From the NCBI RefSeq assembly GCF_002127325.2, contig NC_035448.2, positions 90,162,546 to 90,226,545 on the forward strand: 64,000 nt of DNA, read 5' to 3'. The stretch's first letter is position 1; every line of letters begins with the position of its first letter. The notes under the pieces were generated by a model, which saw nothing but the letters and a program-made list of their open reading frames with translations, did no database searches and was not told the DNA's origin. A program made the translations under genes and the position numbers. Positions 10,229 to 59,109 of this stretch are shown here, in pieces. The DNA is from Helianthus annuus. Lineage: Eukaryota > Streptophyta > Magnoliopsida > Asterales > Asteraceae.

Positions 10229-10421
10229 CGATGAATTTTATTGAAAAACAAAAAAAAGCACAAGGGTGTGTCAAAACAACATACCAACTAGACTTGACAT
10301 GCCAAGCCTAGGACACCACACAACACAATCCAAAACCAAAACACACTAACAACACAACCAAAACAAAAGACAGCCAAGACAAAGCACAAAAGCCGACTCC
10401 ACACCAAGACCCGAAGACCTA

Positions 10422-14093: not shown

Positions 14094-15651
14094 TGACAAC
14101 CTTGGAACCAGGAGTGCTTGCCCCCTCAGAAGAGTCTATGTGCCGTTCATTTGACATAAACTTCGCCATTTCAGTCGGAGTTACTTCCAAAATTTCATCA
14201 GCTACCTGTGACGTTTTATGCGGCTTCCCATTCATACCATCATTATTAACACCAGTATCCTCATACCCATCACCATAATCAGCATCTAATGCCTCAAAAG
14301 CATTGGATGTTTTAACGTTAGGCTCATTCACATGTGTACCAGAATCCTTCTTCGTACCCGAGGTACTCGCTCCCGACTTGTTCACTTTTTGTCTATACAC
14401 AAATTTTGCTTTCGGTTTCTTATTCATCACTCCAATCTTTGCAACCTTTCTATTATCTGTAATAAAACCATCAGCATCAACTACAACTTGTTTAGGAGTA
14501 ACATTCTGATTTTTCGGGCAATTTTGATCATTGTGGCCAAAAATACTACACGTCGCGCAGCGTTGTGGCTTCCACTCATACTCAACCTTGATTTTTTCCA
14601 TAGAAAACCCATCCTCATCAAGTTTCGGGATCGCAACAACTATATGGTCTTTGAGCTCATTATCCGCATTAACTTCAATCAAGGCACGAGCATAACTACT
14701 CCTACCCCAACTATGAGCACACATATCAGCTGTATAGCTATCCAATCTCTTTGGAACTCCAATTTTGGACGCCAGTAAACTTAATCCGTCATCAGTATAG
14801 ATTGAAATCGGAACATTATGGAGCTTAACCCATGTAGGAACCGATTTGATACCCTCTTTTTTTAAACTGATGGATGGAGACCATATATTAAGAAATAACG
14901 GCACTTTACGAATTAACCACGGCCCTCCCTCCAGCGCTTTATGCATACCTTCTTTAGAATCAAACTTAAAGAAAAAGAAGCCTTCCGAGTTCATCATGAT
15001 CTTAGAAAATCCAAACTTTGCCCAAACATTTTTAACGTAGTACTCGACAACCGGAAACGACAATCTATTCCCTAAAAAGTAACCAAAAAGAACATTATCA
15101 AACCTATCTTGTACCTTCTTAACAACCTCCTTTGGAATCACAACATCCGCCTCTTGGTGTGTTTCCGTATTCTCCAGCTTCCTAAAGTTCACTTCGGTCT
15201 TAGGCCTCGTGTTACTCTTCAACTTTTCAGCGTATGAAATTGGTTGCGCAGATTGGTTTGTCTTCTCCAATTGTTGACTATCCAAATCAGATCGACCAGA
15301 ATAGTTAACCTTCTCCAAATCATCAACAACTGGCTGAACCGGCTGAACTGGAACCGTAATCTTCACCAACTCATCGATGACATTGATAACCTTATGATCT
15401 TTCTGCACAACACCCCGACGAGGCATCAGAGGGTTTCCATCAATCTTAATCGGCTTACTAAACAAGGAGGATTTATTTCGCATATCCTGAACATTAACTG
15501 ACCCCTTGGAAGTAATGAGAACATCTTCATGCATCCGCTCCGAGAAAGACTGAAACCCTAATTCCTCCAAACTTGGATCACGATTACTTGCCATGCATAA
15601 AATAACGTTGAAACACAGCAAGACGACAAAGCATGCAAACCGAAACAGCAA
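14086..15651 (-). CDS. L1b ORF1, DUF4283 and CCHC protein
   Basis: Intact LINE ORF1 of up to 521 codons. The more likely start is the ATG at 15594 (M-A-S-NRDPSLEEL), because from there it aligns with the ORF1 of L1a; the 19 residues before it are hydrophobic leader-frame translation. DUF4283 core (NVWAKFGFSKIM, GPWLIRKVPLFLNIW, PTWVKLHNVP) and knuckle CATCSIFGHNDQNC (CX2CX4HX4C). The ORF ends AATGGATAG, within which ORF2 begins. ORF1 is preserved while ORF2 is broken. Confidence 0.9.
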   Translation of the reverse strand: MLFRFACFVVLLCFNVILCMASNRDPSLEELGFQSFSERMHEDVLITSKGSVNVQDMRNKSSLFSKPIKIDGNPLMPRRGVVQKDHKVINVIDELVKITVPVQPVQPVVDDLEKVNYSGRSDLDSQQLEKTNQSAQPISYAEKLKSNTRPKTEVNFRKLENTETHQEADVVIPKEVVKKVQDRFDNVLFGYFLGNRLSFPVVEYYVKNVWAKFGFSKIMMNSEGFFFFKFDSKEGMHKALEGGPWLIRKVPLFLNIWSPSISLKKEGIKSVPTWVKLHNVPISIYTDDGLSLLASKIGVPKRLDSYTADMCAHSWGRSSYARALIEVNADNELKDHIVVAIPKLDEDGFSMEKIKVEYEWKPQRCATCSIFGHNDQNCPKNQNVTPKQVVVDADGFITDNRKVAKIGVMNKKPKAKFVYRQKVNKSGASTSGTKKDSGTHVNEPNVKTSNAFEALDADYGDGYEDTGVNNDGMNGKPHKTSQVADEILEVTPTEMAKFMSNERHIDSSEGASTPGSKVVNG

Positions 15652-15840
15652 AAAACAAAAAAAGGCGGCAATGAAACGAAACAGAAACCCTAATCACAAA
15701 AGAAACGAAAATCCTAATTCCAACTTCAAAAGATTAGAAACCAGGGTAGAAGTCTAGAAACCTTACTCAGAAGGATCGACAACACCCCAATACCTAACCC
15801 AAATCAATCAAAATTAAGAATGAAAGATCAAGTATTAGGG

Positions 15841-16609
15841 TTTACGCTATTGCTAGACTATATACCATCGTCCTCAGGTTAGTCAGGACACTTACGTAAA
15901 ACCTACGTAAATTAGTATCTACCACTGCCTCCCGGGTCGGGAGGACACTTACGTAAAACCTACGTAAACTCATACCTACTACTGTCTTCCGAGTCGGAAG
16001 GACACTTACGTAAAACCTACGTAAACCCCACGCGTACCACTGTCCTCGGGGAAGGGCACTCACGTAAAACCTACGTGACCTTGTACGTATACCTGTTCTC
16101 GGGCTAAGAAGAACACTCATGGTTATAGATAGTCTAGTAAGTATAAACATGGGAATCCCCCACTGGAATTAAATGTAATCATGGGAAACCCCCACTAGTA
16201 GTACATTCATACATGGGAAGCCCCCACTAAATGAACATACGTTTTGCTATTACGAACTTACTTTCTGTGAACTCGCTCAACTAGTTGTTGACTCTCTGCT
16301 GCATGCCTTGCAGGACCTTAGGTACTTATGGAGCTTGCACAGGGAGGAGCAGGTCGTTGTGGGACATGGATCATGGATGCCATGTTAAACGTTTAAACAC
16401 TTGAACTTATGATTTACTTTGGGTTTACATACTTATGCTTCCGCTACTCAAATTATGCTTTGTTTGGTTTGAACATCAATTGTATTGAGTTGGGTTTACG
16501 AACTACTATAATTATTATACACTATGTTCAATATGATTGGTGGCTTGATCCTGGTCATGTCACGCCTCCAAGCGGTGGTACTCCGCGTGTGGATTTTGGG
16601 GGTGTGACA
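15841..16609 (+). repeat. A 5' LTR, second part
   Basis: Continuation of the A LTR after L1b, carrying the hairpin array 15869-16226 and ending GGGGGTGTGACA at 16609, directly before the PBS. It matches 23190-23954. Confidence 0.95.
15869..16226 (+). repeat. Pentaloop hairpin array, A 5' LTR copy
   Basis: Four units of about 56-60 bp, each a variable hairpin followed by a stem of type TTACGTA/TACGTAA around AAACC, then three TGGG/CCCA hairpins with loops AATCC, AAACC and AAGCC. Same arrangement as in the 3' LTR (23215-23571). Confidence 0.85.
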
Positions 16610-17014: not shown

Positions 17015-17109
17015 GTATATCCTGTAGTTATAACTCACACTAGGATCTTTAGGTCCTACACTCCTAGACCAACTCTTGTGTTTAACTTTGCCCTATTCGT
17101 ACACAATAG
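17015..17109 (+). other. Putative intron in A gag (95 bp)
   Basis: GT at 17015 and AG at 17108-17109. Joining the flanks in phase 1 gives AQAGGQHAPQPVCTFKNF, which aligns with C gag. Unspliced, the first frame stops just inside. D has an intron at the same place and phase. Confidence 0.75.
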
Positions 17110-20100: not shown

Positions 20101-21604
20101 ACTATTCAATCCAGTCTTCCTGCACAGATACGAGATGCTCAGGTAGAAGCACTGAAACCAGAAAACGTAAGGGCTGAAGCCTTTCGTGGCTCGAGGCAAC
20201 GATTGGAACAGAAGGAAGACGGCGACTACTATGTAACGGGGCGTATTTGGGTCCCATTATATGGCGGTTTACAAGAACTCGTGATGGATGAAGCACACAA
20301 ATCTCGCTACTCGGTACATCCAGGGTCGGATAAAATGTACCACGACATCAGGACTACGTATTGGTGGCCTAGCATGAAGGCCCACATTGCCACTTATGTC
20401 GGCAAATGCTTGACTTGTGCAAAAGTCAAGGCAGAATATCAGAAACCAGCAGGCTTACTTCAGCAACCAAAGATACCACAGTGGAAATGGGAGGAAATTT
20501 CCATGGATTTTGTTACAAGCCTACCTAGATCCCAGCGTGGGAACGATACTATTTGGCTGATCGTGGATCGACTCACCAGGTCTGCTCACTTCTTGGCAAT
20601 CAAAGAAACAGACAAGTTCTCCACGTTAGCAGGCATATACTTGAAAGAAGTGGTCTCAAGGCACGGGGTGCCCACCTCTATCATTTCGGATCGAGATGCA
20701 CGATTTACATCAGAGCTATGGCAAGCAATGCATAAGGCTTTTGGCTCTTGATTAGACATGAGCACGACTTATCACCCTCAGACGGATGGGCAGTCTGAGC
20801 GCACGATTCAAACTCTAGAAGACATGCTTCGAGCATGTGTTATCGATTTCGGCAACAGCTGGGAAAAGCATCTCCCTTTGGTGGAGTTCTCATACAATAA
20901 CAGTTATCACACCAGCATTCAAGCTGCTCCATTCGAGGCATTGTACGGGCGTAAATGCCGGTCACCTCTCTGTTGGGCAGAAGTGGGGGATAGTCAGATC
21001 ACGGGTCCAGAACTTATAGTGGACACCACGGAAAAGATTGCACAAATACGACAACGCATGGCGGCAGCTCGCGACCGTCAGAAAAGCTACGCGGATAAGC
21101 GTAGGAAGCCATTGGAATTTCAGGTTGGGGACCGGGTTTTACTCAAAGTCTCACCCTGGAAGGGTGTGGTTCGTTTTGGCAAACGGGGCAAGCTCAATCC
21201 GCGGTATGTCGGACCATTCGAAATCATAGAAAGAATAGGCAAAGTAGCCTACAGACTAAACCTACCAGCTGAACTCGGTGCAGTTCACAATGTTTTCCAC
21301 GTGTCGAATCTGAATAAGTGCCTGTCAGATGAGACCCTCATAGTTCCTCTGAAGGAACTCACTATCGACGAGCAGTTGCGATTCGTCGAGGAACCAGTAG
21401 AAATCACGGACCGGGATGTTAAGGTCCTCAAAAACAAGAGAATCCCTCTTGTTCGAGTTCGTTGGAACTCCCGTCGTGGCCCAGAGTTCACCTGGGAACG
21501 AGAAGATCAGATGAAAGAAAAGTACCCCCAATTGTTTGTGACCAGTACAACTACTACTGAGGCTGAAGCTACCACGGAATTTCGGGACGAAATTCCAGAT
21601 CAAC

Positions 21605-21614
21605 GGGGGGAGGA
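21605..21614 (+). other. A polypurine tract (outer)
   Basis: GGGGGGAGGA directly before TGTGACACCCC at 21615, priming site for plus-strand DNA. It lies inside the pol frame. A second candidate, GTTGGGGATAA, precedes TGTGACAACTCG at 21708. Confidence 0.85.
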
Positions 21615-22627
21615 TGTGACACCCCAGGAAAACCATGCAACTTAACTAGCTTCCTCAGTGAGTATGTACCAAATTTCGGGACGAAATTTCTTTTAAGTTG
21701 GGGATAATGTGACAACTCGTAATTCGAACCTACTTTGTGTAACGTTACGTGATTATGTGAACTTTATTTGAATAACCTGTTATACGTGCCTTGTGAAAAT
21801 TGTGTAATGTACGAATGTTATGTTATGTTTATATGCTTGTATGATCCGATGGCACAACAACCATCACTCGATCGCACAAGCCCATTTGGGCCGTATTGCT
21901 TGTAACCGAAACCAATAGGCAGCCGGGTGGGGCTCGGCCCATCTTGATGTTCACATAACACTTCAGGGTAGTAACCACCTCTCACTTTTATCAAAAATCA
22001 CAACACACACAAAACCCTAGCTCTCTCTCTCTCTCTCTCCCTCACGAACCCGACGGCAACACTCCTTGGCAATCGAAGATTTTGTTTTCATTCGGATTTG
22101 CCTTCCTTGTTTCACCTACAAATCGGTTAGTGTTTTGTTATTGATTTCTTGTTGAATGATGTTATGATTCTATGCTTTGATTAAAACGATTAGGGTTATA
22201 GGTATGATGAACAATAATGAACCATATGTTGATGTTCTTGTGAATCGGATTTGCATGAGAATAATTTAAAACCGATTAGATGTTGCTAGGCTATCATGTC
22301 CTGTTTTTCGGATTAGTTGTGCGATGATTTAAGATTGAATGAATGTAATCGGTGGTGTGTTTATGAACCGGACCGAATCATATGAGTTGTAGTTATTGTT
22401 TATGCTTTGGTTATGATTAGGGTTCTTATGAATCAGTTGATAATTGCCCTGTTTGATCGATGGTATGCTAATCGGATGGTTGGAAATTTGTTAATTGATA
22501 TGAATGTGTTTGAATTCTAAATTGAATGTTGATTGATCTGAATTGTGAAATTGCTAAATCTGTTTGCTAACATTATGGAATTGATTGAGCTGGAATTAAG
22601 GAAATCAGGAAAATCGGTTACACTTCA

Positions 22628-22850
22628 TAGTCTCGACAAGGGATTGCGAGTCGAGACCCCACTGTCTCGACTCGAGACCGCAACACCCACACACAAACAG
22701 CACAACCCGAGACCACGGTTGCGGGTCTGGTTGCGACTCGAGACCGTGTAGTCTCGATTAGTACATGATGACCCGAGACCTCCTTGTTGCGACTCGAGAC
22801 CATGAGGCCAACACAACTCGAGATCTCTAGTCTCGACTCGAGACCCTTAA
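22628..22850 (+). repeat. CG-rich motif array, A 3' LTR copy
   Basis: Same set of GACTCGAGACC / GTCTCGACTC motifs as at 9649-9871, with only isolated substitutions. Confidence 0.8.
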
Positions 22851-23214
22851 CACATGCACATCGTTTTGGACTTTGCACACTGTTACGAGCCCAATCTTTT
22901 GGGCTGCATACTTGGACCTTATTTACGTGACCGTTATTGATCTGCCATGATTATACGTGTATGCTATGGTCACTACTTGTGTACAATACGTGTAGAATAT
23001 ACGTGCACTACTTGAATATGAATCTGACTTGTATGGTAACCATGGTAGGACGTGGTTGACCACCCTATAGCTTGACCGACTTTCTGTGTATCTGCCGAGC
23101 AAACCAAGGTGAGTTCACACAGCCAAGGCATGGGATTCCCAGGTTGGGAATGGGTTGGAAGGTTTGAAATGGATAATTACTTGTACTTACGCTAATGCTA
23201 GACTATATACCATC

Positions 23215-23571
23215 GTCCTCAGGTTAGTCAGGACACTTACGTAAAACCTACGTAAATTAGTATCTACCACTGTCTCCCGGGTTGGGAGGACACTTACGTA
23301 AAACCTACGTAAACTCATACCTACTACTGTCTTCCGGGTCGGAAGGACACTTACGTAAAACCTACGTAAACCCCACGCGTACCACTGTCCTCGGGGAAGG
23401 GCACTCACGTAAAACCTACGTGACCTTGTACGTATACCTGTTCTCGGGCTAAGAAGAACACTCATGGTTATAGATAGTCTAGTAAGTATAAACGTGGGAA
23501 TCCCCCACTGGAATTAAATGTAATCATGGGAAACCCCCACTAGTAGTACATTCATACATGGGAAGCCCCCA
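23215..23571 (+). repeat. Pentaloop hairpin array, A 3' LTR copy
   Basis: Stem pairs around a 5-nt loop: TTACGTA/TACGTAA at 23237-23255, 23294-23312 and 23351-23369, TCACGTA/TACGTGA at 23405-23423 (all loop AAACC); GTGGG/CCCAC at 23494-23508 (AATCC); TGGG/CCCA at 23527-23539 (AAACC) and 23559-23571 (AAGCC). Between them lie variable hairpins bounded by GT...AC: GTCCT/AGGAC near 23215, CTTCCG/CGGAAG near 23331, GTTCT/AGAAC near 23440. Confidence 0.85.
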
Positions 23572-23959
23572 CTAAATGAACATACGTTTTGCTATTACGA
23601 ACTTACTTTCTGTGAACTCGCTCAACTAGTTGTTGACTCTCTGCTGCATGCCTTGCAGGACCTTAGGTACTTATGGAGCTTGCACAGGGAGGAGCAGGTC
23701 GTTGTGGGACATGGATCGTGGATGCCATGTTAAACGTTTAAACACTTGAACTTATGATTTACTTTGGGTTTACATACTTATGCTTCCGATACTCAAATTA
23801 TGCTTTGTTTGGTTTGAACATCAATTGTATTGAGTTGGGTTTATGAACTACTTTAATTATTATACACTATGTTCAATATGATTGGTGGCTTGATCCTGGT
23901 CATGTCACGCCTCCAAGCGGTGGTACTCCGCGTGTGGATTTTGGGGGTGTGACAGTCAA

Positions 23960-26900
23960 GCCCAGGCTGACAACAACGTGGTTAATGGTACGTTCCTTGT
24001 GAATGGTATTTATGCATCATGTTTGTTTGATACTGGATCCGATAACTGCTTTGTGTCGTTTGAATTCGAGAAGCTCCTTAGTCGTAAGCGCTCTTATCTT
24101 CCCTCGTCATTCGAAGTAGAAGTTGCCACAGGAAGAACTGTCGCCGTTAACTCTGTTCTTCGTGATTGTACCCTCGAGCTCAACAATCACATCTTTCCAA
24201 TCGACCTCATTCCGATGCAACTCGGCAGTTTCGACGTCATAGTAGGCATGGAGTTTCTTCGCGAAAACCATGCTGAAGTTGTGTGCTTTGAAAAGATGAT
24301 TCGATTCTCGCTAGCGAATGGTGATCTACTATGTGTATACGGTGAAACAGCTTCAAAAGGTCTCAAACTCATGTCATGCGTCCAAGCTAGCAAGTATCTC
24401 CGCAAGGAATACAGCGCTTTCTTGGCCAACATTGTAGTAGCGGAGAAGGAAAAGAAAAAGAAGGCCGAAGTCAAAGACGTTCTAGTGGTTCGAGAATTTC
24501 CTCAGGTGTTCCCTGATGATCTTCCCGGGCTACCGCCAAGTCGTGATATCGACTTTCGTATCGACCTCATTCCTGGAGCTAACCCTGTTGCCAAAGCCCC
24601 TTATCGACTCGCGCCATCTGAAATAAGGGAACTCTCAAACCAACTCCAGGAGTTACTTGAAAAAGGCTTTATTCGCCCGAGCACCTCTCCTTGGGGCGCA
24701 CCAGTCCTTTTCGTCAAAAAGAAGGATGGGTCGTTCCAGATGTGTATCGACTACCGGGAATTGAATAAGTTGACCATCAAGAACCGTTATCCTCTACCTC
24801 GAATCGACGATTTGTTTGATCAACTACAAGGTGCATCGTGTTTCTCGAAGATCGATCTACGCTCAGGCTATCATCAGTTACGCATACAAGAGGAAGATAT
24901 ACCCAAAACAGCCTTTCAAACTCGATACGGCCATTACGAATTTGTTGTCATGCCATTTGGTCTAACTAACGCACCCACAGTTTTTATGGATCTAATGAAT
25001 CGCGTGTGTAAGCCTTATCTTGACCGTTTCATCATCGTATTCATCGACGATGTCCTGTTTTATTCCAAGTCGAAAACCGAACACGCGCAACATCTACGTT
25101 TTGTTCTCGAGTTACTCCAGGGGAACCAACTCTATGCCAAGTTCTCCAGGTGCGAATTCTGGCTGGAGGAGGTTCAGTTTCTGGGTCACATCGTGAATAG
25201 TCAGGGTATTCATGTCGATCCCGCGAAGATTGAAGTAGTTAAGAGCTGGATTATGCCTAAGAACCCGTCTGAAGTCCGATCATTTCTTGGATTACCGGGT
25301 TATTATTGACGATTTATCGAAGGATTCTCTAAGATCGCTGTGCCGCTTACCGCACTTACCCATAAGGACAGGTCTTTTGTTTGGGGAACTGAACAAGAAT
25401 CTGCTTTTCAAACCCTTAAGCGGAAGCTCTGCAACGCTCCTGTTCTCACATTGCCGGACGGAAACAACGATTTCATTGTCTATTGTGATTCTTCCAACCT
25501 TGGTCTTGGCTGTGTTCTCATGCAGCAGGACAAGGTTATAGCTTACGCATCTCGTCAGCTCAAAATCCACGAGAGGAACTACACAACCCACGATCTCGAG
25601 CTAGGCACAGTTGTTTTTGCATTGAAGATTTGGCGACACTACCTGTATGGTACCAAGTGTACGATCTTCACCGATCACAGGAGTTTACAGCACATCTTTA
25701 ATCGGAAAGAACTTAACATGCGTTAACGCCGATGGGTAGAACTTCTTAACGATTACGACTGTGAGATTCGTTATCACCCAGGAAAGGCAAATGTTGTTGC
25801 CGACGCGCTCAGCAGACAGAGTTATGTGCTCAGTATTTGCAATACCCAAGCCCAACATAACCTCGAAGCCCTCATCCGCGAAGCCCAACATGCTTGTTTT
25901 AACGAACGCACTTTGAAGAAAGAGAGGATTTATCACGATGGAGCTCAGCTTGTAAGCAAAGCAAATGGGATTTTCTATTATCTGGACCGAATTTGGATCC
26001 CTAAGCGAACCGATTTGCGAAAGATTATAATGGACGAAGCCCACAAATCCCGCTACTCTATTCATCCCGGTGCTGATAAAATGTACCAGGACCTTCGTTA
26101 CAAGTACTGGTGGCCGGGTATGAAACGGGATATTGCCCTCTATGTTGGAAGTTGCCTGACTTGTGCGAGAGTCAAGGCTGAACATCAACGACCTTCCGGC
26201 TTACTCGAACAACCTCCAATCCCCATATGGAAGTGGGAGAGTATAGCTATGGATTTCATAACCAAACTTCCGCCCACGCCATCAGGTCACGACAACATTT
26301 GGGTCATAGTTGATCGTCTGACCAAATCAGCCCACTTTTTACCAATACGGGAAGACTATAAGGTAGAACGACTAGCCCAAATCTACACCGACGAGATCAT
26401 TTGTAATCATGGTACGCCTCGTGACATCATTTCAGACCGGGACGCTCGGTTTACTTCGCGATTATGGGAAACGTTTCAAGCGGCTCTTGGTACGTCGCTT
26501 AACCTGAGTACTGCATTCCATCCTCAAACTGACGGACAGACTGAAAGAACGATCCATACTCTTGAAGACATGCTCCGTGCATGTGTCATAGACTTCGGTG
26601 GTAGTTGGAACAAGTACCTACAGTTAGTCGAATTCTCGTACAACAACAACTATCATACCAGCATACAGATGGCACCATTCGAGGCTTTATATGGAAGAAG
26701 ATGTCGTTCGCCTATTGTATGGCACGAGATCGGTCACTCGCAATTAACCGGTCCCGAGTTACTACAAGAAACGACTGACAAAATCCTCCAGATTCGAGAC
26801 AACTTGTCGAAAGCTAGGGATAGACAGAAAAGTTACGCCGATAGAAGACGCAAGCTCCTTGAATTTGACGTTGGCGACTACGTACTCCTAAAGGTATCAC

Positions 26901-30293: not shown

Positions 30294-30655
30294 GTGGGGG
30301 CTTCCCATACTAGTGTGTACTAAAGGTGGGGGCTTCCCATGTTCATCCGGGTTAATGAGGGCTTCTCATTAACGGTACTTACTAGACTAACTTCCGACCA
30401 TGTGTTCTTCTTTACCGAGAACAGGAAAACGTACAGGGTCACGTAGGCTTTACGTGACGTGCCCTTCCCCGAGGACAGTGGTACGCGTGGGGGCTACGTA
30501 GGCTTTACGCAGCGTGGCCTTCCGACCTGGAAGCCAGTGAATGGTATTGGGTTACGTAGGCTTTACGTAACGTGTCCTTCCCGACCCGGGAGACATATGG
30601 CAAGTATACTGGGTTACGTAGGCTTTACGTAACGTGTCCTGACTAACCTGAGGAC
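30294..30655 (-). repeat. Pentaloop hairpin array, C 3' LTR copy
   Basis: Seven hairpins all with loop AAGCC in the sense (minus) strand. Plus-strand positions: 30294-30308 and 30326-30340 (ATGGG with CCCAC), 30351-30373 (9-bp GTTAATGAG/CTCATTAAC), 30438-30458 (GTCACGTA/TACGTGAC), 30493-30513 (GCTGCGTA/TACGTAGC, one G-U), 30551-30571 and 30613-30633 (GTTACGTA/TACGTAAC). Interspersed GT...AC hairpins: GTTCT/AGAAC near 30403, GGC-TTCC/GGAAGGCC near 30516, GTCCT/AGGAC at 30636-30655. Confidence 0.88.
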
Positions 30656-31127: not shown

Positions 31128-31330
31128 ATGGTCTCGAGTCGCAACGGAGATCTCGAGTCGCAACCGGAGATTACGAGTCGCAACAGCTGGTTGCGAGTCG
31201 CAATGGAGATCTCGGTTCATCATGGTCTGGTTACGAGTCGCAACGGGACTCGCAACCGTGGTTTCGGCTGGTGCTGTTTGTGGTCTCGAGTCGAGACGGG
31301 GGTTTCGACTCGCAATCTGAGTCGCAACCG
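31128..31330 (-). repeat. CG-rich motif array in C 3' LTR
   Basis: About ten copies of GTCTCGAGTCG, GAGTCGCAACC and GACTCGCAACC in 200 bp, related to the arrays in A and D. The same array is at 38416-38618. Confidence 0.8.
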
Positions 31331-32243
31331 GCTGTGTAACTGATTTCCATAATTCTAGTCAATTAAACTCCGTGATTTCAGCAAACATATTCAACAGTTT
31401 CGGAAACAGATCAAACACCGAAAATAGCAGTTTCATAGCAATCTTCAAACATGTTCATATGCTTAAACAAAACAGCCTAGATAACAATCAATCGGATCAT
31501 CAAACAGCCTAAACCGAATCATGCAGAAACGTTTTGATTAATCAATTTCATGACAGCCTATAACCATGCACCTAACCGGTTCGAATCAAACAATAAGTCG
31601 AGCATAAAACGTAACCGTACATGTTATCCGATTAACAAACATCACTATTATAAGTACCCGCATCCAACATCAACAACCAATCAATATTACAAGCATACAC
31701 CTTAGTTACATCACCTAACAGAATGATAGCAATCACATAATATCATAAATAATCCAAAAACATAACATCATCACTAACCGGATGAAGGTAGAGGATCGAT
31801 TCGTTTCACAAGCTTCAAAGTGTGTGTGTGTGTGCCGTCGGGTTCCAAGCAAGCCGAGAGAGAGCAAAGCTTCTAGGGTTTGTGTGTGTGTGTTTGTGAT
31901 TTGCAAAAGTGGTGAAACAAGCCCCTTGTTCCGGTTTTGTGTTGCGAATGGGGAGTGGGCCGGGCCCACTCGGTTGTCTAATGGACCCGAGAACAAGGAG
32001 TGGCCCCAAGGGCTTTGTGTGGCCGGTTCACATACATACGACATACATACACACATAATGCATATAACATAACATATATCATGAAATCAATTAATCATTC
32101 GGGTTTATAAAATCACATATCGTGCACAAACGTTACATCAAGCAAGCCTAAAGTTCGAGTTGTCACATTATCCCCAACTAATTGGAAATTTCGTCCGGAA
32201 ATTTGGTATGCACTCACTGAGGAAGCTAGGTAAACTGTACTGT

Positions 32244-35200
32244 TCACTGGTTTTCCTGGGGTGTCACATCCTCCCCCCGTTGATCTGGAATTTCGTCCCG
32301 AAATTCCGAAGTAGTAGCTTCAGCCTCAGTAGTGGTTGCCTTGTTCCCGAATAACTGGGGGTACTTTTCTGTCATCCTGTCTTCGCGTTCCCAGGTGTAC
32401 TCTGGGCCACGTTTGGAGTTCCAACGAACTCGGACAAGAGGGATTCTCTTGTGTTTGAGGACCTTCACATCCCGGTCCGTGATTTCAACTGGTTCCTCGA
32501 CGAACTGCAACCGCTCGTCGATAGTGAGTTCCTTAAAAGGAATGATGAGTGTTTCGTCTGATAGGCACTTCTTTAAGTTCGATACATGAAAGACATTGTG
32601 AACTGCCCCGAGTTCAGCTGGTAGTTTCAACTTGTAGGCTACCTTGCCAATCTTTTCTATGATTTCGAATGGTCCGACGTACCGCGGATTCAGTTTGCCC
32701 CGTTTGCCAAAACGAACCACACCCTTCCAGGGTGAGACTTTCAATAAAACCCGGTCCCCGACCTCAAATTCCAATGGCTTTCTACGCTTATCCGCGTAGG
32801 CTTTCTGACGGTCGCGTGCTGCCGCCATGCGTTGTCGTATTTGTGCAATCTTTTCTGTGGCGTCCACTACAATCTCTGGACCCGTGATCTGACTATCTCC
32901 CACCTCTGCCCAACAGAGAGGTGACCGGCATTTACGCCCGTACAATGCCTCGAATGGAGCGGCTTGAATGCTGGTATGGTAACTGTTATTGTAAGAAAAC
33001 TCCACCAAAGGGAGGTGCTTTTCCCAGCCGTTGCCAAAGTCGATAACGCATGCCCGAAGCATGTCTTCGAGAGTTTGAATCGTCCGCTCAGACTGCCCAT
33101 CCGTCTGAGGGTGATAAGCCGTGCTCATGTCTAACCTTGAGCCAAAAGATTTGTGCATTGCTTGCCAAAGTTCTGACGTGAATCGTGCATCGCGATCCGA
33201 AATGATAGACGTGGGCACCCCGTGCCTCGAGACAACTTCTTTAAGATAGACGTCTGCGAGAGTGGAGAATTTGTCCGTTTCCTTAATCGGTAGGAAGTGT
33301 GCAGACTTGGTGAGTCGATCAACTATGACCCATATTGTATCATTTCCACGCTGGGATCTGGGTAAGCCTGTAACGAAATCCATGGAAATTTCTTCCCATT
33401 TCCACTGAGGTATCTTAGGCTGTTGAAGTAGGCCAGCTGGTTTCTGATATTCGACCTTGACTCTCGCACAGGTTAAGCATTTTCCAACATACGTAGCAAT
33501 GTGGGCCTTCATACTAGGCCACCAATAAGTAGTGCTGATGTCGTGGTACATTTTATCCGACCCTGGATGTACCGAGTAGCGAGACTTGTGAGCTTCATCC
33601 ATAACAAGTTCGCGTAAACCGCCATAAAGTGGGACCCAAATCCGGCCCGTTACATAATAGGCGCCGTCTTCCTTCTGTTCCATTTGTTGTCGTGAGCCGC
33701 GTAAGGCTTCAGCCTTGACGTTTTCGGGCTTCAGTGCTTCTGTCTGAACAGCTCGTATCTGAGCAGGAAGGCTAGACTGAATCGTAAGCTGTAGCGCTCG
33801 CACGCGCCGTGGCAAAGTGTCTTTTCGACTAAGGGCATCAGCCACAACATTGGCTTTGCCTGGATGGTACTTGATGGCGCATTCGTAGTCATTAAGTAAC
33901 TCGACCCATCGTCGTTGACGCATGTTCAAATCTTTCTGCTTAAGGATATGCTCGAGACTCCTGTGATCGGTGTAAACCGTGCACCTGGTACCGTACAGGT
34001 AGTGTCGCCATATCTTAAGCGCGAAAACCACAGCTCCCAGCTCTAAATCGTGCGTCGTGTAGTTCCGTTCATGAACCTTGAGTTGACGAGAGGCGTAGGC
34101 AATCACTTTATCCCGCTGCATCAATACGCATCCCAGACCCTGTATTGACGCGTCACAATATACCACGAAGTCATCCGTGCCCTCTGGCAATGAAAGAATA
34201 GGTGCACTGCAAAGCCTATCCTTTAGATACTGAAAAGCAGTTTCCTGCGTGTTGCCCCAACGGTAGGTGACACCCTTCTGTGTCAGTAGTGTGAGTGGCT
34301 GCGCAATCTTCGAGAAATCCTTAATGAACCGTCTATAATAACCTGCCAGACCCAAGAATTGTCGTATTTCTGTCGGCGTACGCGGTGCAGGCCAGTTCCT
34401 GATCGAATCTACCTTGGATGGATCGACATGGATCCCATCCTTGTTCACCACGTGGCCTAGAAAGTGGACTTCACGAAGCCAGAAGTCGCATTTAGAAAAC
34501 TTAGCGTACAGCTGCTCCTTCCGAAGGAGTTCCAAAATGAGGCGAAGATGCTGCTCGTGTTCCTCCTGACTCTTGGAGTAAATCAGGATGTCGTCGATAA
34601 ATACAATGACGAACTTGTCAAGATAGGGTTTGCATACCCTGTTCATAAGATCCATGAACACCGCGGGCGCGTTCGTTAACCCAAACGGCATGACAAGAAA
34701 CTCGTAGTGACCGTAACGAGTTCTGAAGGCTGTCTTGGAGACGTCCTCATCCCGGACTCTCAGCTGATGATAACCAGACCTCAAGTCTATCTTCGAATAG
34801 TAACACGACCCTTGCAACTGGTCGAATAAGTCGTCGATGCGCGGAAGAGGATAACGGTTCTTCACCGTCACCTTGTTGAGTTCTCTGTAGTCTATACACA
34901 TCCTGAACGTACCGTCTTTCTTCTTCACGAAAAGTACTGGAGCTCCCCAAGGCGAAGAGCTTGGTCGAATAAAACCCTTTTCCAAGAGTTCTTGCAGTTG
35001 CTTTGACAATTCCTCCAATTCTGATGGAGCTAGACGATATGGTGCGCGAGCTATGGGTGCTGCTCCTGGAGTGAGCTCGATCTGAAATTCGACCTGACGA
35101 TGAGGCGGTAAGCCAGGTAAGTCTTCAGGAAACACCTGAGGGTAATCACGTACAATTGGAACATCCTCCAATTTCTTTTCCTTTGTTGATGCGTCTGTAA

Positions 35201-37187: not shown

Positions 37188-39455
37188 TGTCACACCCCCA
37201 AAATCCACCCGCGGAATACCACCGCTTGGGAGCGCGACTGACCAGGATCAAGCCATCAATCATATCAAACATAGCATTTAATAATAATAAAAGTAATTAA
37301 CGTAAGTCACCATGACATGATTGATGTTTCAAAACCAAATACTGTTTTAAGTAGCGGAAGCATAGTAAAGTAAATTCAAAACGAGTTATGAGTTCGACAT
37401 CATTAACGATCCATCTGCCCACAACGACCTGCTCCTTCCCTGTGCAAGCTCCCAAGTATACCTAAGGTCCTGCAAGGCATGCAGCAAATAATCAACAAAC
37501 TAGTTGAGCGAGTTCACAGAAAGTAAGTTCATAACATGCATAAGTGTAGCTAGTGGGGGCTTCCCATACTAGTGTGTACTAAAGGTGGGGGCTTCCCTTT
37601 ACCCAAAAAAAAGGTGGGGGCTTCCCATGTTCATCCGGGTTAATGAGGGCTTCTCATTAACGGTACTTACTAGACTAACTTCCGACCATGTGTTCTTCTT
37701 TACCGAGAACAGGAAAACGTACAGGGTCACGTAGGCTTTACGTGACGTGCCCTTCCCCGAGGACAGTGGTACGCGTGGGGGCTACGTAGGCTTTACGCAG
37801 CGTGGCCTTCCGACCTGGAAGCCAGTGAATGGTATTGGGTTACGTAGGCTTTACGTAACGTGTCCTTCCCGACCCGGGAGACATATGGCAAGTATACTGG
37901 GTTACGTAGGCTTTACGTAACGTGTCCTGACTAACCTGAGGACGATGGTCTATAGTCTGGTATATGCGTAAGTACGAGTAACTCATTTTACAGTAACAAA
38001 TCCAACCCAATTCCCAACCCGGGAATCCCATGCCTTGGCTGTGTGAACTCACCTTGGTTTGCTCGGCAGATACACAAAGAGTATAGATAAGCTAGTAATT
38101 TGTCAATCACGTCCTAGCATGGTTGTTATACGAGTCAGGTTCGTATATAACACGTATGTAGTAATCACGTATAGTCATGGCAAACATGTACGCACGTAAG
38201 CAGATAAGACATAACATGTGAGGATCCAATTGTCTAAGTCCAACAATGCCCGGTCCAATAACATAAGCAGCCCAATAATATAACAATCCAGATTCCCAAT
38301 CGGCCCAAGTAGCAAACACATACAAGTCCATTAGCAAAACAGTCCACAATTCAAATCGTTGGGCTCAATAGATTGGGCCCGTGACAGTGAAGGCCCAACA
38401 GTGTGCGTGTAAACGATGGTCTCGAGTCGCAACGGAGATCTCGAGTCGCAACCGGAGATTACGAGTCGCAACAGCTGGTTGCGAGTCGCAATGGAGATCT
38501 CGGTTCATCATGGTCTGGTTACGAGTCGCAACGGGACTCGCAACCGTGGTTTCGGCTGGTGCTGTTTGTGGTCTCGAGTCGAGACGGGGGTTTCGACTCG
38601 CAATCTGAGTCGCAACCGGCTGTGTAACTGATTTCCATAATTCTAGTCAATTAAACTCCGTGATTTCAGCAAACATATTCAACAGTTTCGGAAACAGATC
38701 AAACACCGAAAATAGCAGTTTCATAGCAATCTTCAAACATGTTCATATGCTTAAACAAAACAGCCTAGATAACAATCAATCGGATCATCAAACAGCCTAA
38801 ACCGAATCATGCAGAAACGTTTTGATTAATCAATTTCATGACAGCCTATAACCATGCACCTAACCGGTTCGAATCAAACAATAAGTCGAGCATAAAACGT
38901 AACCGTACATGTTATCCGATTAACAAACATCACTATTATAAGTACCCGCATCCAACATCAACAACCAATCAATATTACAAGCATACACCTTAGTTACATC
39001 ACCTAACAGAATGATAGCAATCACATAATATCATAAATAATCCAAAAACATAACATCATCACTAACCGGATGAAGGTAGAGGATCGATTCGTTTCACAAG
39101 CTTCAAAGTGTGTGTGTGTGTGCCGTCGGGTTCCAAGCAAGCCGAGAGAGAGCAAAGCTTCTAGGGTTTGTGTGTGTGTGTTTGTGATTTGCAAAAGTGG
39201 TGAAACAAGCCCCTTGTTCCGGTTTTGTGTTGCGAATGGGGAGTGGGCCGGGCCCACTCGGTTGTCTAATGGACCCGAGAACAAGGAGTGGCCCCAAGGG
39301 CTTTGTGTGGCCGGTTCACATACATACGACATACATACACACATAATGCATATAACATAACATATATCATGAAATCAATTAATCATTCGGGTTTATAAAA
39401 TCACATATCGTGCACAAACGTTACATCAAGCAAGCCTAAAGTTCGAGTTGTCACA
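37188..39455 (-). repeat. C 5' LTR (2268 bp)
   Basis: Starts on the minus strand with TGTGACAACTCG at 39455, that is, without the about 100 bp that lie between the two TGTGACA starts at the 3' end. Apart from a 29-bp insertion at 37597-37625 I see no difference from the 3' LTR. Hairpin array 37553-37943, CG-rich array 38416-38618, telobox 39162-39169. Confidence 0.95.
37584..37625 (+). mobile_element. 16-nt LINE tail insertion with 13-bp TSD
   Basis: Relative to 30325-30340 of the other LTR, this copy carries CTTTACCCAAAAAAAA (37597-37612) flanked by GGTGGGGGCTTCC at 37584-37596 and 37613-37625. The inserted bases equal the last bases of the LINEs here (TTTACCC plus A tail). Confidence 0.85.
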
Positions 39456-50950: not shown

Positions 50951-51282
50951 CTGTCCATTTTGGTTATTGGGCCGATATGTGTAATATGGGCTATCTGTTG
51001 ACTGGACTATGTATTACTGTTTGATTTCGTATATGATAAGGCCGGCCCAGTAACCCACTGTTTACTTGTATGCATGATACGTGTTAGTTATGTGTAAGTT
51101 TTTACGTGAATGCTTGTACACCAAACCTGACCTATACCGGTAACCATGTTAGGACGTGGTGACCAACGTATTTGACAAGTGACCTAATCTGCCGAGCAAC
51201 CCAAGGTGAGTTCACACACTAAAAGCATGCGTTCCGCGGAGGGACACGAACAAACTACCAACTTTGGGAAAAACATTTTGGA

Positions 51283-51623
51283 CCCATTACTCCGGGGGAA
51301 ACAGAATGGGTAATTACTATCTCCGGGGGAGATACGTTTGGATATTATTTATAAATCACAACTAGCCATGCTAAACGAAACTCTATCACCTTAAGTCCCT
51401 GCTTACAGTACCGATTAATCGCCGGGGGCGAACGGGTTATTAGTTGATAGCGCTATTAGGTTTGACAACCTCACACCGTGACCGGGGGGATCGGGCGTGA
51501 ACTAGTAGACCTTGCAACATGGTCAATGACGATAGACATTGACTCGGGGCACGAATATTTATATTCCGTCAACAGTTTCGGTATCCACAGTTTAGTGAGC
51601 TTACAGATGGGGTAGCTCCCCAT
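51283..51623 (+). repeat. Hairpin cluster in D LTR (GGG loops)
   Basis: TATCTCC/GGAGATA around GGG at 51318-51334; TCGCC/GGCGA around GGG at 51419-51431; CCCATT/AATGGG enclosing TCC-GGG-GGA at 51283-51310; ATGGGG/CCCCAT around TAGCT at 51607-51623. Copy at 58371-58711. Confidence 0.7.
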
Positions 51624-52021
51624 AACGTGATTATAAATGCTTTATCTAAACAACTTAAGTTTTTGGTAAACTAAAACTGGACAACTAGTGAACTCACTCA
51701 GCATTATTGTTGACCCCTTACTGCATGCTTTGCAGGTGATCAGTGACTTAGGAGCTGCTGCTTGGGGATGTGTAGTGTGCGTCAAACCCGTGTGTTGGGT
51801 TAATTATTTCGAACTAAGAACTATCTTTTGAACTACTTTGGTTTATGCTTCCGCTGTTTTGTTAAACTAATTACCGAACCTAAACTCTGATGTTGCTAAT
51901 TACTTCGGATATTAAATATTTCTACAATTAATTAAATGCTCAGTATAATTGGTGGCTGGATCCTGGTCAGTCACGCCCTCGAAGTGGGTGTTATCCGCAG
52001 GTGGATTTTGGGGGTGTGACA

Positions 52022-52304: not shown

Positions 52305-55300
52305 ATGAAGACAATGAGTGGACGCGGAAGAGGAAACATTAACATGACACAGGCTCAGTTCACTAACCTGCTCAACACAGTGGCTGCAGCTTTCGCAGCT
52401 CACCCTATAGGTAAGCTCGTTGTTTTAGGATGTTTAGATCCTACCGTCACATCGTCTTTTCGCCTCTAAGTCTATACGCTTCGCTTCTCACGAACAGGTC
52501 AGCATGCACCTGCGCAACCACCCGTGTGTACTTTCAAAACTTTTATGGATTGCAAGCCTCTCCCTTTCAACGGCACTGAGGGTGCCATAGGTCTTCTGCA
52601 TTGGATTGAGAAAATTGAAGTTGTCTTTGCTGTCTGTGAGTGTCCCCCTGCAAATTGGGTGAAGTTTGCTACTGCTACGCTTGAAGGAAGCGCGCTTTCC
52701 TGGTGGAAGGCGCAGATTCAGATGTTTGGGTTGGAAACTGCTAATGCTACTGCGTGGGAGGATTTCAAGGACATGATTAGGGAGGAATACTGTCACCGGG
52801 ATGACATCCACAAGCTTGAGAACGAGTACTATGCGCTTAAGATGGTTGGGTCAGAGATTGAAACCTACACCAAACTGTCCAATGACTATGCTGCTCTTTG
52901 CCCAAATATGTCTCGAACTATGTATCGAAGAATCGAACTGTACATCAAGGGTTTGGCTCCAGAAATTCGAAGCCATGTAACTTCAGCCAACCACACTACC
53001 ATTCAGCCGATCGTTCGACTTGCTCACAAACTCACTGATCAGGCCGTAGAGGAGGGCAGGTTGCCCAAAAGGATCAGTGCTACTGTCGGAACTTCTAGTG
53101 ACAACAAGCGTAAGTGGGAGGGAAATCAAAGCAAGGATGCTAACCCCACTCAGGCCCCAGCGCAGCAAAGGAAAACCGAAAGCAACAAGGGCGCTCAACA
53201 ACAGGGTGGCTATCGCGGTAACCACCCCAAGTGCAACAAGTGCAATCGACATCACAGCGGGCAGTGTGTGAAAGGTCAGTGTCAGCGATGTAACAAAATG
53301 GGGCATGAGGCCAAGGACTGTAGGAGTCCACGTCCCGTGGGGCAGAACCAGCAGCAACAACATCACGGGAATGCCAAGGGTTGTTTCCAGTGTGGAGCTG
53401 AGGGGCACTATAAGAAGAATTGCCCTGAACTGAACCAGAACCGCAACAACAATCAGGGAGCTGGAAACAACGATCAGAACAACAATGCTGGGAATGGTGC
53501 TAGAGGAAGAGCTTTTGTGATTGGAGCTGGAGAAGCAAGGAATGACCCCAATGTCGTGGCGGGTAAGTTCCTACTCGATGATCGTTATGTTTCTGTATTA
53601 TTTGATTCTGGAGCCGATGCTAGTTATGTGTCTCTACGTATTAGTAAGAAGCTTAAGCGTCCGCTTTCGTTACTAAGTTCCCCTCATATCGTCGAGTTAG
53701 CCAATGGTAGAAACATCGAGGCCTCACATGTTATCAAAGGCTGCAAACTAGAGTTGTCTGGTCAGACATTTAGTATCGATCTTTTCCCTGTTACTCTTGG
53801 AAGCTTCGACGTCGTTATTGGTATGGATTGGTTATCCAAGCATCGCGCTGAGATCCTCTGTCAAGAGAAAGCAGTTCGTATTCCCCGCCGTTCTGGCAAA
53901 CCCCTCATTGTACAAGGCGGCAAAGGCGGAGAAATCTCCGGCGTTATCTCTTTCTTAAAGGCCCAGAAGTGTTTACGAAAAGGGCACACCGCTATCTTAG
54001 CACTTGTCACCAACACGCAGGAAAAGGAAAAGAGGATTGAAGATTTTCCGGTAGTGCGTGACTACCCCGAGGTATTTCCTGAGGAGTTACCTGGACTCCC
54101 TCCCCACCGTCAGGTTGAATTTCAAATCGAGCTAGCTCCCGGAGCAGCGCCCATAGCTCGTGCACCTTATCGACTAGCCCCCGCAGAATTGAAGGAACTC
54201 TCTATTCAACTACAGGAACTATTGGACAAAGGGTTTATCCGCCCTAGTTCATCACCCTGGGGAGCACCGGTACTCTTTGTTAAGAAGAAGGATGGCACGT
54301 TCCGAATGTGCATTGACTATCGCGAGCTGAACAAGGTTACCATCAAGAATCGTTACCCTCTCCCGCGAATCGACGACCTATTCGATCAGTTGCAAGGATC
54401 GAGCTACTATTCTAAGATTGACCTGCGATCAGGCTACCATCAGCTGAGGGTCCGAAATGAAGACGTCTCCAAAACGGCATTCAGAACTCGCTATGGTCAT
54501 TATGAATTTCTCGTTATGCCTTTCGGAATGACCAATGCCCCTGCAGTGTTCATGGATCTTATGAACAGGGTGTGCAAACCCTACCTCGACAAGTTTGTGA
54601 TCGTGTTTATAGACGACATCCTGATCTACTCGAAAAGTCAGGAAGAGCATGAACAGCACCTACGCCTTATCCTCGAACTCCTTCGCAATGAGCAACTGTA
54701 TGCCAAGTTCTCGAAATGCGACTTCTGGCTTCGGGAAGTCCATTTCCTGGGGCACGTGGTTAACAAGGATGGAATCCACGTTGACCCTGCAAAGATCGAC
54801 TCTATAAAGAATTGGCCTACCCCTAAGACTCCGACCGAAGTCCGCCAATTTTTGGGACTGGCGGGATACTATCGAAGATTTATCATGGGATTCTCAAAGA
54901 TCGCTCAGCCTCTCACGGCTCTTACTCAGAAGGGTATGGTTTACAAATGGGGTGAAGCTCAGGAAACCGCGTTTCAGAAACTAAAGGATAATCTCTGTAG
55001 TGCTCCTATTCTCTCGTTGCCTGAAGGCACTGACGACTTTGTGGTTTACTGCGATGCATCCATCCATGGGCTCGGTTGTGTGTTAATGCAACGCGAGAAA
55101 GTTATTGCTTACGCCTCTCGCCAACTCAAGACACACGAAAGGAACTACACTACGCATGACTTGGAACTAGGAGCAGTGATCTTTGCGCTTAAGATATGGA
55201 GACATTACCTGTACGGTACCAAGTGCACCATTTACACCGATCACAGGAGTCTCGAGCATATCTTCAAGCAAAAGGAATTAAACATGCGACAGCGTCGATG

Positions 55301-56809: not shown

Positions 56810-59109
56810 TGTGACACTCTAGGTTTTTCCGAACGAACACCTTGTAATATTTTGTGTATATAAAGGTTATTTAATGAAAACGTGATCCTTATTTGCATAA
56901 TGTGTGTTGTATGTACGTATTATATATATTTATGAGAGCCGAGACCACGACCCGAGACCATGACTCGCAACCACTCGGTTGCCAGTGGGCCACTCGGTCT
57001 CGAGTGGGCCTTTGGGCCGTAACCGGTTTGGGCCGAAACCCCAAGCCCAACTCAAAGACCCCTTGTATATAAATCCCACCTTTCCCCACTTCCTTCATTT
57101 TACACACACACTTCTCCTATTCTCTCTCAACTAGAAACCCCAAACAACAACAACCCATTCTCTTCTTCCAACTTTCGGATTCAAGCAAGGAATCTCGGAC
57201 AAGAATCTCGGACAAAATTCATCACTCGGACACTTCATCTTCCCTCATTTTCTTCCTTTGTTTTCGGCTCCTTCTTCACAAACCGGTTAGTGTTACATAT
57301 GTGTAATGGATGCCTTGTATGAAATGTTTTTGAACTAGAAAGTGCTTGGTTAGAAACATTATGCATGATTCTAGGATGATTTGTGAAGTTGACTATATGT
57401 GAAAACCATTTATGTATGAATACTTGCTAACATGTTTAAAATGACTAACAAAAGGTAGTCTAAGAATAATTATGGCTAACCATACCATGCTTCTTTATTT
57501 CTTGCAAAAATGATGATGATTAAACATAAGATTTCGGCTATATAATGTATGTTTTCTTGTTTTGCATCATGATCTTGTCAAAAATATGTAAGTTTTGGTT
57601 CAAGAAGGTGTGATTATGTTTGACATGAAAACCCTAAAAATGATGAACATAGGATGAACTTGTTTGAATATGATTGAAGATTTCAAAATGGCAAAGTTTG
57701 ATCTATTTTTACTAATAGTCAGATTAGGCAAAGTTGTTAGTGGAACCTCATTGGCCGTTTCCCGATTTGGGCCTGAATACATGGTACAAATTGGACTGAT
57801 GCATCTGCATCATCACGTGTACATGAAAGGGACAGCATTCCGACTCGCAACCGCACCGTTGCGACTCGCAACCAAGGCATGACAACTCGAAACCACGTGA
57901 TTGCGACTCGAGACTACGACGGTTGCGACTCGCAACCACAACGTGACAACTCGAGACCACACGGTTGCGACTCGCAACCACAGCGTGACAAGCCGAGACC
58001 TCCTGGTTGCGACTCGAGACCGCCTGGTTGCGAGTGGGCTGTCCATTTTGGTTATTGGGCCGATATGTGTAATATGGGCTATCTGTTGACTGGACTATGT
58101 ATTACTGTTTGATTTCGTATATGATAAGGCCGGCCCAGTAACCCACTGTTTACTTGTATGCACGATACGTGTTAGTTATGTGTAAGTTTTTACGTGAATG
58201 CTTGTACACCAAACCTGACCTATACCGGTAACCATGTTAGGACGTGGTGACCAACGTATTTGACAAGTGACCTAATCTGCCGAGCAACCCAAGGTGAGTT
58301 CACACACTAAAAGCATGCGTCCCGCGGAGGGACACGAACAAACTACCAACTTTGGGAAAAACATTTTGGACCCATTACTCCGGGGGAAACAGAATGGGTA
58401 ATTACTATCTCCGGGGGAGATACGTTTGGATATTATTTATAAATCACAACTAGCCATGCTAAACGAAACTCTATCACCTTAAGTCCCTGCTTACAGTACC
58501 GATTAATCGCCGGGGGCGAACGGGTTATTAGTTGATAGCGCTATTAGGTTTGACAACCTCACACCGTGACCGGGGGGATCGGGCGTGAACTAGTAGACCT
58601 TGCAACATGGTCAATGACGATAGACATTGACTCGGGGCACGAATATTTATATTCCGTCAACAGTTTCGGTATCCACAGTTTAGTGAGCTTACAGATGGGG
58701 TAGCTCCCCATAACGTGATTATAAATGCTTTATCTAAACAACTTAAGTTTTTGGTAAACTAAAACTGGACAACTAGTGAACTCACTCAGCATTATTGTTG
58801 ACCCCTTACTGCATGCTTTGCAGGTGATCAGTGACTTAGGAGCTGCTGCTTGGGGATGTGTAGTGTGCGTCAAACCCGTGTGTTGGGTTAATTATTTCGA
58901 ACTAAGAACTATCTTTTGAACTACTTTGGTTTATGCTTCCGCTGTTTTGTTAAACTAATTACCGAACCTAAACTCTGATGTTGCTAATTACTTCGGATAT
59001 TAAATATTTCTACAATTAATTAAATGCTCAGTATAATTGGTGGCTGGATCCTGGTCAGTCACGCCCTCGAAGTGGGTGTTATCCGCAGGTGGATTTTGGG
59101 GGTGTGACA
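56810..59109 (+). repeat. D 3' LTR
   Basis: 2300 bp, about 99.7 percent identical to the 5' copy by eye, followed by TSD TAAAA. ORFs in it mirror those of the 5' LTR and are not genes. Confidence 0.97.

Follow-up and report, generated by a model that had tools for sequence, protein, structure and literature searches.

A hairpin array between splice-like sites in LTRs of Helianthus annuus Ty3-type elements: a possible packaging domain

Two Ty3-type retrotransposons, A and C, in a 64 kb stretch of Helianthus annuus DNA (the window, i.e. this whole stretch) carry in each LTR a tandem array of small hairpins, about 360 nt long, which lies between a donor-like AAG|GTGAGT that can pair with a downstream GTGAACTC and a YAG|G acceptor-like site. 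The array, its covariation, this frame with its splice-like sites as well as a gag intron and the precise losses of this intron are read from the sequence. The fold of the array is quite probably a selected RNA structure. As the best explanation of its role, which we regard as possible rather than probable, the array may provide the unspliced leader with a multivalent RNA domain that marks genomic RNA for packaging. Such a domain would open at the donor-like AAG|GUGAGU, which also supplies the 5' arm of stem P1, closing the domain, would contain a hairpin H0 followed by a family-specific row of hairpins, and would end with the 3' arm of P1 and the YAG|G acceptor. One protein would occupy the recurring loops (AANCC in both A and C) in many copies, and its most likely identity is the Gag of the element itself, binding via its zinc knuckle (a zf-CCHC domain is detected in E). 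RNA keeping the interval would become the packaged genome, with RNA without the interval going to translation.

Nested elements and the array of A and C

The window contains the nested Ty3-type elements A, C, D and E (table 1), which presumably belong to the Tekay clade. A and E have TG..CA LTR ends, PBS, gag, protease, RT, RNaseH and integrase as expected for Ty3-type LTR retrotransposons, where the domain scan detected integrase only in the pieces of A and covered E in part. The top matches of a gag-pol piece of E (best 120 of 3112) are from Helianthus and other Asteraceae, and reach at most 91% identity, with 61% of the query aligned. Family A has many copies, with 2693 candidates, 40 of which were scored at 94–100%. 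If the clade assignment given above is right, expression of these elements may be rare, since Tekay-clade elements are missing from the set of expressed elements in sunflower as presented in the available text of PMC7730604.

A LINE (DUF4283 and reverse transcriptase, approx. 10206–15842) is inserted in the 5' LTR of A between H0 and the array; it splits the array from the upstream LTR part with the promoter region, so that this copy cannot normally be expressed. Two starts with a purine-rich stretch and TGTGACA, 93–101 bp apart, are seen at 8637, 8730, 21615 and 21708 (plus strand) and at 32167 and 32268 (minus strand); the A LTR begins at the upstream TGTGACA (target duplication GTCAA) and the C LTR at the downstream one, and the LTR border has therefore shifted between the families. 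The initial annotation had placed the array downstream of an inferred promoter and upstream of the PBS. The copy that precedes the PBS is the one in the 5' LTR of A; the array at 23215–23571 is part of the 3' LTR, with no PBS after it. A position in a transcribed leader is suggested by E, where TATATAAA at 57066 forms a box approx. 1.2 kb upstream of the leader interval; for A and C, we infer it from their homology with E.

The bounds 23215–23571 are exact, the first interleaved hairpin marking the start and the last GGG-AAGCC-CCC hairpin the end. Seven hairpins with a fixed pentaloop had been claimed per LTR, and seven were indeed counted in each of the four arrays (A3, A5, C3, C5) when a perfect stem of at least 4 bp and an AA[AGT]CC loop were required, compared with means of 0.0125, 0.0095, 0.006 and 0.007 and maxima of 1, 2, 1 and 1 in 2000 dinucleotide shuffles per array. 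The loops follow the family as described earlier, i.e. all seven are AAGCC in C, and in A, where AAACC was said to dominate, there are five AAACC, one AATCC and one AAGCC; in both families the AARCC loop is on the coding strand, C being a minus-strand element. Of the stems cited as examples, GCTGCGTA/TACGTAGC is not perfect and contains a G.T wobble. In A, the H1 hairpins (GTC..GAC with variants, a bulged G in some) number five and alternate with four H2 hairpins of the TTACGTA-AAACC-TACGTAA type; three H3 hairpins (TGGG-AANCC-CCCA) follow. The units are in tandem, with a period of 57–62 nt. The order in C is the same, every H2 stem being one G-C pair longer than in A and the first H3 (H3a) being replaced by GTTAATGAG-AAGCC-CTCATTAAC, a hairpin with a 9-bp stem.

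Further palindromic features were observed elsewhere in these elements. Further upstream in the LTR, another palindromic array (22640–22850, plus strand; 31130–31340, minus strand; 50753–50945 and 57841–58033, plus strand) consists of 20–21-bp units GGTTGCGACTCGCAACC / GTCTCGACTCGAGAC, often with mixed half-units (TTGCGACTCGAGA), and reaches fold z-scores down to -4.5. A hairpin with an AATCC loop is present in the pol frame, with a perfect stem of 8 bp in A (21433–21453, plus strand) and of 7 bp in C (32434–32452, minus strand), and is not kept in E. The 5' LTR of C contains a 29-nt insertion, TTTTTTTTGGGTAAA, and a repeated GGGAAGCCCCCACC (37570–37630, minus strand); its similarity to the LINE end in A suggests that a LINE may have inserted here as a very short piece, duplicating its target at an H3 hairpin.

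A covariance-model search against Rfam (window 21600–24000) gave no match up to E 1. Among viral_contigs, the ACGTAAARCCTACGT pattern occurs in 48 stretches, none of which has a second copy, GGGAADCCCCCA or the acceptor block; the donor-block pattern has nine matches there, and the RT piece no relative. In bacterial assemblies, the RT piece matches eight loci, where array and splice motifs occur only as scattered matches with three mismatches. Neither such an array nor an intron in an LTR leader is described among the matches listed in a search of open-licence texts.

Table 1. Coordinates of elements, array units, frame and gag introns (window numbering).
Feature	Position	Strand	Remarks
A, 3' LTR	21615..23954	+	carries the array analysed; TGTGACA ends; target duplication GTCAA on both element flanks
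A, 5' LTR	start 8637	+	interrupted by LINE
C, LTRs	39455-37188 and 32167-29929	-	
E, LTRs	49722-52021 and 56810-59109	+	
D	begins 63703	-	continues past window edge
Distal donor-like site (donor 1)	22126..22132	+	G|GTTAGTG; switch from C-rich to T-rich, C-poor; same in A, C, E
Proximal donor-like site (donor 2) and P1 5' arm	23109..23119	+	AAG|GTGAGT; arm GTGAGTTCACA, pairs with 23611-23621
H0	23135..23151	+	ATTCCC-AGGTT-GGGAAT; GTCCC/GGGAC in E
P2, inner long-range helices, 5' arms	23183..23213	+	GTACTTAC, CTAGACTAT, ACCAT; predicted in MFE of A and C, refined by eye
H1 unit 1	23215..23234	+	
H2 unit 1	23237..23255	+	TTACGTA-AAACC-TACGTAA, also CGTN7ACG
H1 unit 2	23271..23292	+	bulged G
H2 unit 2	23294..23312	+	
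H1 unit 3	23328..23349	+	TGTC/GACA (C: TGGC/GCCA)
H2 unit 3	23351..23369	+	
H1 unit 4	23387..23402	+	one U.G pair
H2 unit 4	23405..23423	+	TCACGTA-AAACC-TACGTGA
H1 unit 5	23439..23460	+	TGTTCT/AGAACA
P2, 3' arms	23464..23489	+	
H3a	23494..23508	+	GTGGG-AATCC-CCCAC; C counterpart: GTTAATGAG hairpin, 30351-30373 (-)
H3b	23527..23539	+	TGGG-AAACC-CCCA
H3c	23559..23571	+	TGGG-AAGCC-CCCA
P1 3' arm	23611..23621	+	TGTGAACTCGC
Acceptor-like site	23645..23659	+	TTGCAG|G; TGCAG|G in A, C, D, E
A, 5' LTR copy of array	15870..16226	+	ahead of PBS (16613)
C, 3' LTR array	30294..30655	-	
C, 5' LTR array	37553..37943	-	
E, 3' LTR interval	58294..58823	+	other hairpins: 58319-58333, 58406-58422, 58507-58519, 58695-58711
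E, 5' LTR, corresponding interval	51206..51735	+	
A, gag intron	17015..17109	+	GGAG|GTATAT ... AATAG|GTCAAC; absent from C
E, gag intron	52411..52497	+	ATAG|GTAAGC ... ACAG|GTCAGC

Covariation of the stems and readings at the DNA level

Whether this fold is selected can be approached through the changes that its stems have undergone, and the earlier argument that double compensating changes speak for selection is supported both between A and C and within another family. With the A structure laid on a MAFFT alignment of A and C, 69 of the 73 stem pairs are kept, compared with 64.5 expected when the same changes are permuted at random (p 0.00025), and two pairs have changed on both sides (p 0.013); the columns that differ are 12 of 146 in stems, 12 of 70 in loops and 51 of 137 elsewhere. 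The four pairs scored as broken are all in H3a, because the gapped MAFFT alignment is out of register there; aligned on the loop, H3a is intact, and its counterpart, the 9-bp hairpin of C, shows two compensated changes from G-C to A-T. The interleaved hairpins covary too, as had been stated, with the third unit being TGTC/GACA in A and TGGC/GCCA in C. In the D-type array of LTRs outside the window, i.e. tandem UUCGCA..GCGA hairpins with a variable upper stem (GCCAA/TTGGC, GCCTT/AAGGC, GCCT/AGGC, GCCA/TGGC, ACC/GGT), doubly changed pairs are found at the fourth upper position, which is paired in 12 of 13 units (A-T 4, T-A 6, G.U 2, broken 1; p 0.005). These units were collected by their lower stem and their arms entered by hand; 15 of 19 distinct units were used, with four near-copies of the same or a nearly identical upper stem being dropped, and the comparison of the fifth pair covers four units.

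Compared with one another, the 12 loop-centred hairpins have 78.1% of cells paired, against 58.0% in shuffles (reached in 0 of 500) and 33–44.4% in slid registers, and their covariation score and cells changed on both sides are above all 500 shuffles; two of the five measures lie within the shuffles (doubly changed pairs 87 of 500, further pair types 352 of 500), and these shuffle tests treat the units as unrelated, i.e. ignore the kinship among the sequences. In the H1 hairpins, one pair is G-C in eight, A-T in three and G.U in one, and another is C-G in eight and T-A in four (bulged base of units 2 and 3 omitted, arms entered by hand); here only the variety of pairs counts, because the units were found by requiring paired arms, which makes the pairing itself uninformative. 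A hand tally of about 8 G.U to 3 A.C pair types is not significant. The z-scores of the domain fold range from -1.8 to -3.4 on the sense and from -2.2 to -4.2 on the antisense strand, a modest excess of stability that is not strand-specific, and sliding-window z-scores do not single out the array. Kissing of the H1 loop (RGGTY) with AARCC was dropped as a candidate interaction, since by eye it offers at best four pairs, uncompensated between A and C.

Tandem units with a regular period and a multi-copy family could also mean that the array has no function as a fold, its palindromes having stayed similar through unequal exchange and recent amplification. We give this a slim chance, because homogenisation alone would not produce compensating changes in both arms, let stems evolve more slowly than the spacers between hairpins or preserve H0 from family to family. 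A DNA cruciform bound by a protein would suit the mostly perfect H2 inverted repeats and the equal stability of the antisense fold, but the bulged H1 stems, the internal loops of the D-type hairpins and the G.U pairs are better suited to RNA, and we lend this version very little credence.

The main rival, a possibility that the initial annotation had not raised, is a DNA-level enhancer in which the H2 hairpins are palindromic sites for NAC dimers, with the 5-nt spacer reflecting the dimer spacing and the symmetry of the stems that of the half-sites. The NAC palindrome is given as CGTN7-8ACG with the core T[G/A]CGT (available text of PMC4081100), and the H2 stems with their spacer match both: each array contains six CGTN7-8ACG (24 in all four), compared with 0.12 expected per 360 nt, whereas the rest of the window has 21, with 21.0 being expected for the whole window. 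ACGT occurs 11 times versus approx. two expected in the A and C intervals, and the CGTA/TACG core of the H2 stems is invariant in five distinct A and C sequences and looks like a sequence-specific site; the A-to-G change in C keeps a NAC core. However, the palindrome fits only hairpins with an ACGT stem and leaves the other hairpins of the array unexplained: H0, H1, H3 and the D-type hairpins lack such a core and still show compensated variation, and hairpins with unrelated stems share AANCC loops. Furthermore, ACGT is not enriched in the E interval (2 versus 2.0), and two Q-type arrays (L099, L100) have multiplied H1 while losing most H2. As an account of the array, NAC binding therefore seems rather unlikely to us; for H2 the match is strong, and it may hold in addition to the RNA reading.

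A common frame with different arrays

The sequences that flank the array are shared more widely than the array itself. Across A, C and E, no LTR block is better conserved than CTGCCGAGCAANCCAAGGTGAGTTCACACA with the consensus donor AAG|GTGAGT (29 of 30 columns), and the block TTGTTGA..TGCATGCYTTGCAGG with the consensus acceptor is conserved in 23 of 30 columns, behind two LTR-end blocks with 26. P1 could form by pairing of GTGAGTTCAC with GTGAACTCRC, 37 nt before the acceptor, and is part of the MFE structures of A, C and E; it is absent from the MFE of the untrimmed D domain, and in trimmed domains the cut itself favours P1. The leader splice-site consensus is conserved with tolerated variation, i.e. 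AAG|GTGAGT at donor 2 and CAG or TAG at the acceptor, which by eye reads TGTAG|G in a G-type and TCTAG|G in an F element; in L090 it is TGCAT. In element F (60230–60300, minus strand), TGAACTCGCTCAAC and then TTTCTTTCTAG|G precede the LTR end and the PBS as a module of P1 arm and acceptor, with a LINE-like RT frame upstream.

A second donor-like site, donor 1, sits 983–1014 nt upstream, where the C content drops sharply from 30–35% to 5–9% in A, C and E. Some other LTRs have GTTAGTA or GTAAGTG, and several with enough upstream sequence have no recognizable donor 1. GGTTAGTG is present in nine of 40 rows, six of them within the window and one (L072) without the composition switch; among the 31 rows without it, 12 extend less than 700 nt upstream. 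An ATG-poor first exon was rejected as evidence for donor 1: A, C and E have ATG-free spans of 209, 262 and 339 nt, and the 200 nt before the site contain no fewer ATGs than dinucleotide shuffles (P 0.65, 0.26 and 0.87), so that only the composition switch was counted.

Donor block and P1 are common to A, C, E, D and 12 further intervals in the next 200 kb that were selected for them. When 20 donor-block matches (up to three mismatches) were queried for the P1 3' arm of A, C and D, it was present in 12, matched only with three mismatches in one (L101) and not found in seven; G-type copies make up three of these seven, and the one that was read has a variant arm, with a 9-bp P1, H0 as GTCCC/GGGAC and the acceptor given above (L097, by eye). 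H0, for which no interval had been selected, is at the same place in 17 of 17 intervals. In the D LTR outside the window and in the 12 further intervals, this H0 is accompanied by arrays other than that of A and C. E has hairpins such as TATCTCC-GGG-GGAGATA and TCGCC-GGG-GGCGA, and the Q-type (L089, L099, L100) has H1 stems TGTCCT/AGGACA, TATCCT/AGGATA and TGTTCT/AGAACA (only their variety is informative, as the search required pairing) and one broken H2 stem. In the minus-strand L099 and L100, the multiplied H1 hairpins, seven in L099, are spaced at approx. 35 nt.

Uniform loops within A and C together with different arrays elsewhere suggest that the loops and their presumed protein reader change together; array sequences that differ between families are expected if ligand and loop co-evolve. 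A bolder extension of the packaging proposal, to which we would assign a rather low probability, is a modular and rapidly rewritten loop code, in which a fixed frame (P1, H0, donor and acceptor) holds a swappable array read by the element's own Gag, such that the same tag would check both the unspliced state and the family identity of an RNA before packaging.

A frame closed by a stem could also serve ribosome shunting, in which a scanning ribosome skips the P1-closed domain as in plant pararetroviruses. The long leader with its many ATGs, the closed stem and a short conserved upstream ORF, ATGNTAGGACGTG, before P1 are in line with this, but this ORF ends 49 nt (A) or approx. 30 nt (E) from P1, and the corresponding distance in the CaMV shunt is shorter. 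Moreover, a shunt over the domain alone would miss gag, because many ATGs also follow downstream. This mechanism thus appears very unlikely. The upstream ORF comprises five codons, ATGNTAGGACGTGRTTGA, at 23042–23059 (plus strand), and is longer in E.

Introns, packaging and significance

The packaging proposal implies an RNA that is spliced or not, and an intron does occur nearby. In A and E, gag requires one, because the frame and the protein (..G-Q-H-A..CTFK) join only when an AG|GT..AG|GT segment is removed, and in C precisely this segment is missing (near 36800, minus strand). Among eight gag starts matched in 264 kb, six have the intron (L091 by its junction only) and two do not, i.e. C and a D-type element in L087 (minus strand); L093 (minus strand), with a D-like block after the acceptor, has it. 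Both elements that lost the gag intron retain the leader interval, and RNA without the gag intron has therefore probably been reverse-transcribed at least twice with the interval present. A rule that only interval-bearing RNA is copied would account for this, and a leader that never undergoes splicing would do so equally well. An exact leader exon junction was found at none of 13 places (14 rows, with one D LTR counted twice) in approx. 267 kb, the block after the acceptor still being joined to the intron side.

If the leader sites are used, the domain might instead control splicing and export, hiding or joining the putative splice sites and letting some RNA exit the nucleus unspliced, with Gag binding being unnecessary. 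The donor is indeed within P1 in A, C, D and E, the acceptor follows 37 nt after the P1 3' arm in A, and analogous transport elements exist in the mouse retroelements IAP and MusD, with the occurrence of CAR-like export motifs in plant LTR elements being described as unclear in the relevant part of PMC12786077. Uniform loops in A and C alongside other arrays in other families would be left unexplained, unless a host protein had changed as well, and we regard this possibility as rather unlikely. The packaging proposal would have the same splice sites separate the two RNA fates, with a loop-binding protein, by our inference Gag, choosing the unspliced form.

Parts of this scheme resemble known systems. 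The pregenomic leaders of CaMV and RTBV are likewise long and structured, with a stem-loop containing a splice donor and presenting a packaging signal and with the primer site downstream; they have, however, one large stem-loop and a purine-rich signal as described in the available part of PMC5902531, whereas here family-specific small hairpins are arranged in tandem in an LTR retrotransposon. Barley BARE makes separate RNAs for translation and packaging, one pool being spliced, which resembles the two-RNA scheme proposed here; it differs in splicing just past the end of gag and in having two TATA boxes, and the account of BARE in the available text of PMC3735527 contains no hairpin array. Ogre and EVADE are plant LTR elements with functional introns, as the elements here would be, and are presented as notable exceptions in PMC12786077, the available account of which includes neither an LTR-leader intron nor a hairpin array. 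Retroviral Psi is a structured element of the 5' leader that is bound by the NC domain of Gag, with unspliced RNA being selected (available text of PMC5035971). Psi and the array would thus both be structured leader elements, with Gag binding being a proposal for the array. We know of no sequence relation between the two.

Little is known of how plant LTR retrotransposons select the RNA that they package, and BARE uses other means (as far as described in the available text of PMC3735527). A fixed frame with interchangeable arrays, in a family that is multi-copy in one genome, represents a natural mutagenesis set that allows covariation, co-evolution of loops and Gag as well as intron loss to be counted throughout the genome; short RNAs and recombinant Gag would permit a direct test of the packaging idea. 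If it is true, introns would be placed in LTR leaders of plant elements, for which a recent review calls introns exceptional (in the part of PMC12786077 available).
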